From positions 248,001-312,000 of the forward strand of contig JANQSI010000013.1 of NCBI GenBank assembly GCA_028284125.1: DNA of 64,000 nucleotides. The letters are read 5' to 3'. The notes below the pieces were generated by a model, which was not told the DNA's origin, did no database searches, and saw nothing but the letters and a program-made list of their open reading frames with translations. This stretch comes from Cyclobacteriaceae bacterium (GTDB lineage: Bacteria; Bacteroidota; Bacteroidia; Cytophagales; Cyclobacteriaceae). This document shows, piece by piece, positions 14,479 through 16,401 of the stretch. Within the stretch, counting starts at the first letter, position 1. Every line of letters starts with the position of its first letter. Both the position numbers and the translations under genes were made by a program.

Positions 14479-15000
14479 ATGAAAAACTTTGTTCTATTCT
14501 TATCAATCATTTCTGTTGGCCTTATTTCCTCATGTGGGAATGATGACGATACAGAAGACATCATCAACGAGATAATATTTGACGGAACCACTTTGGTGGG
14601 TGAGAATGGAATTGCTGTCGATATTGGAGATTCTGAAACTCATTACGAGTTTAACTTCGCCATTTCTGATGGAGATATAAACTATGTTGCTAGTTCAGAA
14701 AGCTTTCAGTTTTCGACTAGTGCCAGTTTCTACTTCCTCTTTGGTGCAGCTTCTTTGGGTACAGATCAATTTAAGACCGGTACTTTTCAATTCAAATCTG
14801 TAATCGATGCGGTTCCGGATGACAATTTCTTCTTCAGTACAACCTTCAAAGAAGGTGGCAACTCTCCAACTCTTAGTGTGACCGATGGAACAATCACAAT
14901 CTCTGGCTCTAGTCCAAATTATACGATCCAGTTCGACCTAACCTTAACTGGTGGTAGAAGCCTTACTGGTGCATTCGTTGGAACATTTGAGGTGAAATAA
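14479..15000 (+). CDS. Lipoprotein of unknown function
   Basis: The preferred start at 14479 gives 173 residues: a lipoprotein signal (MKNFVLFLSIISVGLISSC, lipobox LISSC) followed by an acidic linker (GNDDDTEDIINE). The mature part looks all-beta and ends with TLTGGRSLTGAFVGTFEVK. An earlier in-frame ATG (14449) overlaps rny and would place a polar stretch before the signal. It should sit on an envelope membrane. No named family recognised. Confidence 0.7.
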   Translation: MKNFVLFLSIISVGLISSCGNDDDTEDIINEIIFDGTTLVGENGIAVDIGDSETHYEFNFAISDGDINYVASSESFQFSTSASFYFLFGAASLGTDQFKTGTFQFKSVIDAVPDDNFFFSTTFKEGGNSPTLSVTDGTITISGSSPNYTIQFDLTLTGGRSLTGAFVGTFEVK

Positions 15001-15017: not shown

Positions 15018-15049
15018 TTTCTAAAATCCATCCAAAGGCTATACTTTTG
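15018..15049 (+). promoter_or_regulatory. lysA promoter
   Basis: TACTTTTG at 15042-15049 matches TAnnTTTG. TTTC at 15018-15021 sits 20 bp before it as an imperfect -33 TTTG. Transcription would begin near 15056, only a few bases before the leader ATG. Confidence 0.55.
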
Positions 15050-15063
15050 AGCGATTTTTAAAA

Positions 15064-15111
15064 ATGAGAATCAAGCAAACAACAAAGAGTAAGAAACAAA
15101 CCTGGCCTTAA
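15064..15111 (+). CDS. Putative lysA leader peptide (15 aa)
   Basis: ATG at 15064 to TAA at 15109-15111 encodes MRIKQTTKSKKQTWP, with four Lys in 15 residues including an adjacent pair (codons 15091-15096). It lies just after a -7 box and in front of a terminator preceding lysA, the last gene of lysine synthesis. The Lys pair is 18 nt before an antiterminator arm that begins 3 nt after the stop codon, the spacing expected for ribosome-stalling control. Lys codons are common in this AT-rich genome, so composition alone is weak; the RNA geometry carries the call. Confidence 0.55.
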   Translation: MRIKQTTKSKKQTWP

Positions 15112-15113
15112 CT

Positions 15114-15168
15114 GCCTCAGGAAAGAATAATAATGAATTCAAGCCGAGGCGATTGCCACGGCTTTTTT
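15114..15168 (+). promoter_or_regulatory. lysA transcription attenuator
   Basis: Terminator: AAGCCG (15141-15146) pairs with CGGCTT (15159-15164), and GGC (15148-15150) with GCC (15155-15157), around loop GATT with one A-A mismatch; a T-run ends at 15168. Alternative stem: GCCTCaGG (15114-15121) pairs with CCGAGGC (15144-15150) over 7 bp with one bulged A, which would destroy the terminator. CCTGG (15101-15105) can also pair with TCAGG (15117-15121) as a protecting hairpin. The lysA ATG is 9 nt after the T-run. Confidence 0.6.
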
Positions 15169-15177
15169 ATTTTGTAA

Positions 15178-16401
15178 ATGCAAAGAACAAAAATGAACAA
15201 CTCAATAATAGCTAGCGCTGTAGAAGAATTTGGATCACCACTTTATATCTATGATTCTTCAAAAATCAAGGAAAACTACAAGCAGTTTACGGATGCATTT
15301 AAGGTCGAAAAAATGAAGGTTCATTACGCTTGCAAAGCATTGAACAACCTGACAATACTCAAGCTATTTAAATCAATGGGTTCGGGATTGGATTGTGTTT
15401 CCATCCATGAAGTTCAGTTGGGCCTAAAAGCTGGGTTCTTGCCAGAAGACATTCTTTTTACTCCAAATAATGTATCGATTGAAGAGTACGAGGAAGCCAT
15501 TGAATTGGGAATAGAAATCAATGTTGATAACCTTACCACATTAGAATATTTTGGGATGAATCACTCGAATGTTCCCATTTACATTCGAATTAACCCGCAT
15601 TTAATGGCTGGTGGTAATCAAAAAATATCGGTCGGACATATTGATTCAAAGTTTGGGATTTCGATCCATCAAGTCCCTCATATCGAAAGAATAGCCAAGA
15701 AGTTTGACATCAATATCAAAGGAGTTCATGTTCACACCGGTTCAGATATTCTCGATCCTGAAATTTTTGTAAAGGCGGCAGAATTGGTATTCGGTGTAGT
15801 AGAGAAATTCGATTCCGTCACACATATAGACTTTGGAAGCGGATTCAAAGTAGCATATAAAGAAGGCGATTTGCATACGGATATTGAAGCTCTGGGAAGT
15901 AAGTTCAGTCAATCTTTCAATGAGTTTTGTGAGCGGCAAGGAAAAACGTATACGCTTGAATTTGAGCCAGGAAAATACATGGTCAGCGACGCAGGTTTCT
16001 TCGTAGCAAAAACAAATGTAGTGAAGCAAACTACCTCTTGTACTTTCATTGGATTGGATACTGGTTTCAACCATCTCATTCGTCCGATGTTTTACAATTC
16101 CCATCATGAAATCGAGAACATCTCGAATCCGAACGGTGACAAAAAAGTCTATAATGTGGTTGGCTACATCTGTGAAACTGACACTTTTGCGATGGATCGA
16201 ATCATTTCAGAAGTCAGAAAAGGGGACTTGCTAATGTTCAAAAATGCCGGAGCTTACTGCGCGACGATGGCTTCCAACTACAATTCCCGACCCAGACCTG
16301 CGGAAGTTTTGATCCATGAAGGAAAGACACATCTGATCCGAAGGAGAGAAACACTTGAGGATATTCTCGCTACTCAAGTAGAAGCAGAGATTGAATTGTA
16401 G
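15178..16401 (+). CDS. lysA: Diaminopimelate decarboxylase
   Basis: PLP enzyme that decarboxylates meso-diaminopimelate to lysine. The 407 residues show the PLP lysine in VHYACKALNN (Lys53), the substrate His in GVHVHTGSDI, the phosphate-binding glycines in HIDFGSGFKV, EFEPGKYMV, and the C-terminal CETDTFAMD and GAYCATMASNYNSRPRP. The CETD and GAY motifs favour DapDC over arginine or ornithine decarboxylases. A start at 15193 is also possible. Expression is probably set by the attenuator directly upstream. Confidence 0.93.
   Translation: MQRTKMNNSIIASAVEEFGSPLYIYDSSKIKENYKQFTDAFKVEKMKVHYACKALNNLTILKLFKSMGSGLDCVSIHEVQLGLKAGFLPEDILFTPNNVSIEEYEEAIELGIEINVDNLTTLEYFGMNHSNVPIYIRINPHLMAGGNQKISVGHIDSKFGISIHQVPHIERIAKKFDINIKGVHVHTGSDILDPEIFVKAAELVFGVVEKFDSVTHIDFGSGFKVAYKEGDLHTDIEALGSKFSQSFNEFCERQGKTYTLEFEPGKYMVSDAGFFVAKTNVVKQTTSCTFIGLDTGFNHLIRPMFYNSHHEIENISNPNGDKKVYNVVGYICETDTFAMDRIISEVRKGDLLMFKNAGAYCATMASNYNSRPRPAEVLIHEGKTHLIRRRETLEDILATQVEAEIEL

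Follow-up and report, generated by a model that had tools for sequence, protein, structure and literature searches.

Does a ribosome reading a short lysine-rich frame decide whether lysA, the gene for diaminopimelate decarboxylase, is transcribed? The question is raised by a 64,000-nt stretch of Cyclobacteriaceae DNA (the window), in which such a frame and a terminator lie directly ahead of the gene. We infer from sequence, with a probability of roughly 0.86, that lysA is under lysine-responsive, ribosome-mediated transcription attenuation through a lysine-coding leader. Such a switch would probably let lysA be transcribed only under lysine shortage. The parts of the element are as follows:

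15042..15049, + strand: promoter -7 motif TACTTTTG, a match to the consensus TAnnTTTG
15064..15111, + strand: leader frame MRIKQTTKSKKQTWP, 15 codons and a stop, with Lys at codons 4, 8, 10 and 11
15114..15121, + strand: antiterminator 5' arm GCCTCAGG with A15119 bulged, from sequence, duplex and nascent-RNA folding
15144..15150, + strand: antiterminator 3' arm CCGAGGC, overlapping the terminator 5' half, from sequence, duplex and nascent-RNA folding
15141..15168, + strand: intrinsic terminator, hairpin and T run, -13.9 kcal/mol
15193..16401, + strand: lysA, diaminopimelate decarboxylase (NCBIfam TIGR01048, 384 bits against a cut-off of 298; Pfam PF02784 and PF00278)

On the 5' side, a frame that reads as lipoprotein-like and has no Pfam match ends at 15000. 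From there to 15193 the order is promoter motif, Lys-rich leader, GCCTCAGG arm, terminator with CCGAGGC in its 5' half, and lysA. The promoter consensus and its -12 to -5 position are taken from PMC9723704, and transcription is predicted to start about 10 nt 5' of the leader ATG. Read directly, the leader codons are ATG (15064), AGA, ATC, AAG, CAA, ACA, ACA, AAG, AGT, AAG, AAA, CAA, ACC, TGG and CCT, followed by TAA (15109-15111). The terminator is made up of AAGCCG.GGC (15141-15150), the loop GATT, GCC.CGGCTT (15155-15164) and a T run (15163-15168). Pairing of GCCTCAGG with CCGAGGC gives an alternative stem of 7 bp that starts two bases past the leader stop. The lysA start was placed at the ATG at 15193, which aligns with relatives; there is an in-frame ATG at 15178 as well. 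The initial annotation had described a 15-codon frame with four Lys codons, one pair of them adjacent, before a terminator at 15141-15168, and direct reading bears it out. It had also drawn a 7-bp alternative stem just after the leader stop that competes with the terminator, and the stem does overlap the terminator 5' half. Its interpretation of the whole as a lysine attenuator before lysA is supported as a reading, in which we infer the response to lysine.

In the proposed mechanism, RNA polymerase would start just 5' of the leader ATG with a ribosome trailing it. When Lys-tRNA is ample, the ribosome would reach the stop codon and mask the GCCTCAGG arm, so that the terminator forms and transcription stops ahead of lysA. 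When Lys-tRNA is scarce, the ribosome would stall on the Lys codons; the final two begin 20-23 nt 5' of the GCCTCAGG arm. The exposed arm would then trap the terminator 5' half as it emerges, and polymerase would continue into lysA.

Conservation was assessed in ten genomes of the genus, one of which is Ekhidna lutea DSM 19307. All ten carry lysA, and in all ten a Lys-rich frame followed by a terminator lies ahead of it, so the leader frame is kept among relatives. An automatic filter (at least 4 Lys and 22% Lys) picked eight of these leaders; those of L004, which has 3 Lys only, and L009 were added by reading. The leaders are of the types xxIKQTIKNKKQTWP (four genomes), SWxxKKKKSxKKSKRFL-like (four) and KNRNxKKKxxKK-like (two); counting ties, no residue outnumbers Lys in 9/10, and KK occurs in every one. 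A TAnnTTTG or TAnnTTAG motif starts 12-23 nt 5' of the leader ATG in all ten members, and the gene 5' of the element varies among them while the element stays with lysA. LysA identity within the genus goes down to 75%. Over aligned columns, leader-region DNA of sub-clade A (the xxIKQTIKNKKQTWP type) is 75-84% identical to that of the rest, barely above a shuffled control (mean 71%, maximum 82.5%, 60 comparisons); the genus thus conserves Lys content and layout more than sequence. Codon tests in the genus rest on 3 and 2 comparisons only, with p values of 0.065 and 0.055 for a synonymous excess. From equally few comparisons, Lys loss in sub-clade A (3 vs 3.9 under the null, p 0.385) was no better than the null, and in sub-clade B it stood at 2 vs 8.4 (0/400 nulls).

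Two genus genomes, G009 (L031) and G008 (L032), each hold a second lysA-like gene that is 45-46% identical, and no leader was seen before either. LysA of the genus is 66% identical to homologs in two MAGs labelled Chitinophagia and Saprospiraceae and 59-63% identical to those of Aquimarina. Identity to other genera of its own family is 57% at best. Because LysA is closer to distant taxa than to its own family, these values hint at a possible horizontal acquisition of the gene.

Nascent-RNA folding was used to follow the competing stems, taking the RNA from the front edge of the ribosome to the terminator loop and giving the ribosome an assumed footprint of 12 nt that begins at the first base of the A-site codon. 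When the ribosome occupies any of the three final Lys codons, the terminator 5' arm is captured upstream with a predicted probability of 0.90-1.0 in 10/10 genomes; with the ribosome at the stop, capture falls to 0.00-0.54 in nine of them. The exception is L008, which shows no difference (0.90 stalled vs 0.94 at the stop) and forms another pairing at the stop. By this modelling, the antiterminator is exclusive with the terminator, freed when the ribosome sits on Lys codons and blocked when it sits at the stop. Full-length equilibrium folding favours the terminator in most states, including most Lys-stalled ones, and for the window sequence the antiterminator becomes the minimum in two states only, ribosome-free and stalled at Lys 8. 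The switch would thus need kinetic trapping, and equilibrium folding is not decisive as a test of it.

Duplexes joining the leader end to the terminator arm outdo shuffled DNA by a modest margin only (0.002-0.158 of 500 shuffles); for L003 and L006 the strongest duplex is a stem other than the main one. Read by hand, the stem position that follows C-G, C-G and G-C is A-U, G-U or G-C across sub-clades; the next antiterminator positions are G-C or A-U, then G-C or C-G (C-G in L007). The alternative stem accordingly keeps its pairing, with two positions changed on both sides between genus sub-clades, again by hand. Terminators of L001-L003 carry a purine-purine mismatch (A.A, A.G, G.A) at the very position where pairing of the antiterminator requires A/G opposite U, which suggests that the A/G base is retained by the antiterminator.

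Duplicated copies of the element offer a further view of the arm. In G007 (L006, 418 to about 620), an upstream duplicate precedes a lysA start that diverges beyond its sixth codon; seven Lys remain in the leader of this copy, and the arm has gone from TCCGG to TATGG. In G005 (L364, about 1473-1660), a duplicate about 4 kb upstream precedes a lysA start that runs into a stop after five codons; here the leader frame is disrupted and the arm has become TACAG. Copies before an intact lysA retain the antiterminator arm, and both relics, two cases only, have lost it. With the genus leader as a DNA query, the credible matches were the lysA sites and these two relics; the other matches were short (E 0.0099 to 0.83) and were not considered credible.

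A second lineage came from a survey of 167 other lysA upstreams (80 retrieved by hand and 87 from loci collected before), which includes two paralogs of the genus and possibly duplicated species. A terminator-like site was present in 57 of the 167, with a Lys-rich leader before it in three, all from f24, a family of the same phylum in another order. Lys-containing short frames also recur in Aquimarina loci and were dropped on the strength of one locus, L053, in which the frame shares sequence with the 3' end of a long gene, ahead of that gene's terminator. A lysA match was found in 182 of 197 f24 genomes searched. A further 110 f24 upstreams, 30 of them from loci and 80 fetched, yielded 40 ATG leaders that contain 4 or more Lys and lie 15-40 nt ahead of a terminator, and one more leader, with a GTG start, was seen by eye in G470. 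Together with six upstreams from the first survey, three with and three without, Lys leaders precede lysA in 44 of 116 f24 upstreams; as the scans took ATG starts, leaders with other starts are under-counted. Within the 80 fetched upstreams the leaders are distributed by genus as g56 13/20, g86 14/20 (G470 included), g193 8/8, g195 2/5, g207 0/4 and others 4/23, and the 30 loci gave none.

The f24 leaders have cores such as GKKGAVKFSK and SKGKKFFSK, and an arm GAGC or GAGT that pairs with GCTC or ACTC in the terminator. A TAnnTTTG or TAnnTTAG motif lies within 45 nt before the leader ATG in 42/43, against 3.5% in shuffled upstreams, and in 42 of the 43 leaders Lys is the commonest residue or ties for that place. 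Lys codons were lost less often than expected in both groups compared (2 vs 10.0 in group one, 9 vs 35.9 in group two; 0/400 nulls each). Synonymous changes numbered 23 vs 10.1 under the null in group one (0/400) and 34 vs 25.7 in group two (p 0.065).

Pairing in f24 was scored on 36 of 37 distinct sequences, all but G441. In these, 91.7% of antiterminator cells pair, compared with 31-56% when the partner is slid by 1-3 columns; this paired-cell level was reached by 5/500 shuffles and the antiterminator covariation of 0.189 by 1/500. One antiterminator pair only is changed on both sides (U-A and C-G, in 12 of the 36 sequences), a count reached by 213/500 shuffles. A smaller set of 27 sequences, without G510, gave 90.9% pairing with weaker controls (covariation 18/500, paired cells 49/500). 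All five core antiterminator pairs are possible in 27 of the 37 distinct sequences and four in the other ten, G510 with its shortened arm included. The f24 terminator is 85.4% paired, with four double-change pairs (1/500 shuffles) and covariation at 0/500. Nascent-RNA folding of f24 leaders predicts capture of at least 0.8 in 43/43 when stalled (best of the last two Lys; mean 0.97) and of less than 0.5 in only 23/43 at the stop (mean 0.47). A longer leader frame takes in the arm GAGCTGC in G360 (L329) and G441 (L330), both of genus g195, so that this arm is not 3' of the stop; the RNA arm has been retained and its coding status has changed.

Run against 148 genomes of f24's order, a covariance model built on the f24 element hit 13, each with a single strong match (E 2.4e-9 or better). 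All 13 are f24 genomes, and three of them (G395, G414 and G461) had supplied training sequences for the model. Twelve of these matches sit directly 5' of lysA; the lysA of the thirteenth genome (G443) was not among the matches listed. Outside f24, the best match among those listed had an E of 9.9e-4 (G639; Infernal stricter filters) and was taken as noise.

Could the arrangement in the window be fortuitous? The hairpin might be the mere terminator of the lipoprotein-like frame that ends at 15000, in whose 3' gap it does sit, and the Lys-rich frame might be a chance product of A-rich DNA, which often yields Lys codons. We scanned 464 kb of the source genome on both strands (the window and 20 non-overlapping 20-kb stretches) and counted 519 terminator-like sites, 198 of them preceded by a short ATG frame whose end lies no more than 60 nt away. 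A Lys-rich frame (at least 4 and 25% Lys) occurs at 1 of the 519, and that one is the lysA leader. A looser scan of the window, which accepted frames enriched in any single amino acid or in Ile/Leu/Val, returned 8 frames at 7 terminators, including those of ilv and lysA. The Lys-rich leader before lysA is real and exceeds chance. Its presence in all ten genus genomes despite differing upstream genes, each time with a promoter motif between the upstream gene and the leader, and its recurrence before lysA in f24 with Lys codons retained also speak against a fortuitous origin, which we regard as very improbable. Another explanation would accept a ribosome-sensing attenuator and change its signal to arrest by the basic nascent peptide, general translation rate or arginine. 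Basic nascent peptides are able to slow ribosomes, and Arg is present in some leaders (11/179 residues in the genus, 16/986 in f24). This proposal sits poorly with the dominance of Lys in nearly all leaders of both lineages, with peptides that differ among lineages while Lys codons persist, and with a gene product that makes lysine. AAA (169) and AAG (148) are both used, which fits lysine decoding. We consider a signal other than lysine unlikely.

A metabolite riboswitch or an RNA-binding protein might also act on the leader, with the frame incidental, much as the L-box riboswitch controls lysine genes elsewhere (PMC1262725). The lysine riboswitch RF00168 scored above its gathering score in 0/10 genus genomes and in 4 of 14 control genomes, and Rfam scans gave no match for the window or for 20 sources of lysA upstreams (15 of them f24, 5 from the genus). 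The 28 nt from the leader stop to the terminator also leave scant room for an aptamer, and we give this explanation the smallest chance of the three. A T-box leader, a family represented in Rfam, was likewise set aside, with no match in the window or in the 20 sources. Under lysine-responsive attenuation, control may perhaps cover only the last step of lysine synthesis, because no Lys leader was flagged on the matching strand before dapA or aspartokinase genes of the genus (L106-L143; ATG frames, minimum 4 Lys and 22% Lys). The single frame flagged there, in L141, is on the opposite strand to the gene match; dapA was matched in nine of the ten genomes.

The window itself offers a point of comparison, listed here with its terminator:

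347-412: ilv leader MKNILSNILVIINVIIIYDMS, with a terminator at about 437-467, before ilvD and ilvB (NCBIfam)

The leader also precedes frames that were identified as ilvN, ilvC and ilvA by reading alone. Like the lysA leader, this element (347-467) has a two-stem layout, its stop lying inside the arm GAGTTGAGAAGG, the complement of the terminator's CCTTCTCAACTC; unlike it, the ilv leader has Ile/Val/Leu codons and an unrelated sequence and stands ahead of ilv genes. The initial annotation had noted the matching geometry and the unrelated sequences. The trp, his, leu, thr, ilv and pheA attenuators, listed in the introduction of PMC1183508, share with the lysA element a short leader with codons for the product, an intrinsic terminator and an antiterminator that excludes the terminator and has its 5' arm at or just 3' of the leader stop. 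The lysA leader differs from them in its amino acid, lysine, in its phylum, Bacteroidota, and in having two competing stems with no separate pause hairpin seen.

Published work on lysine genes and on leader peptides bears on how new this would be. PMC1262725 assigns lysine control to the L-box, which like the lysA leader is an RNA switch over lysine genes; unlike it, the L-box (RF00168, model of 182 positions) is an aptamer that senses free lysine. In the same phylum, strong hints that leader peptides attenuate amino acid biosynthesis operons have been reported for Flavobacterium psychrophilum (PMC9723704), in a study from whose main text 'lysine' is absent, although its supplement may list a case. 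A further comparison is the S. meliloti SEP5 sORF, a short frame that holds six codons for Thr and three for Lys and has been put forward as a possible leader peptide (PMC10117765); it precedes an aspartate dehydrogenase gene, Thr is dominant, and the relevant passage gives no terminator or antiterminator. According to the accessible part of PMC2965389, where 'lysine' occurs 0 times, no leader-peptide system was known outside Proteobacteria and Actinobacteria before its Firmicutes his case, the ermC leader apart. The word is also absent from the accessible text of PMC1183508. The portions seen of PMC1273637, PMC4833913, PMC9413887 and PMC6386406 contain no lysine leader attenuator; PMC4833913 has a histidine-tRNA case at lysQ of Lactococcus and PMC6386406 an arginine leader. 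A full-text literature search, including a phrase search, found no published lysine leader-peptide attenuator, older key papers and supplements being beyond its scope. This agrees, within that scope, with the remark in the initial annotation that a lysine leader attenuator would be new. Novelty is likely and not certain, because the search covered few subscription papers and no supplements.

The proposed mechanism is of a known kind; its novelty would lie in the use of lysine, in the phylum and in having arisen more than once. We think it fairly probable that a lysine-specific leader-peptide attenuator arose at least twice on lysA in Bacteroidota, in the Ekhidna genus and in f24, where it would serve the function that the L-box has elsewhere. 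The textbook list of leader-peptide attenuators lacks lysine, and lysine genes are model riboswitch targets. The analysis also shows that gene-centred comparison can find small leaders that have no Rfam family. To our knowledge, transcription-translation coupling in Bacteroidota has been little studied, and the lysA leader would provide a compact, testable reporter of Lys-tRNA charging in this phylum. The seemingly separate origins in two lineages, neither of which showed an L-box before lysA, suggest that this kind of sensing may be open to any amino acid with codons that can be grouped.
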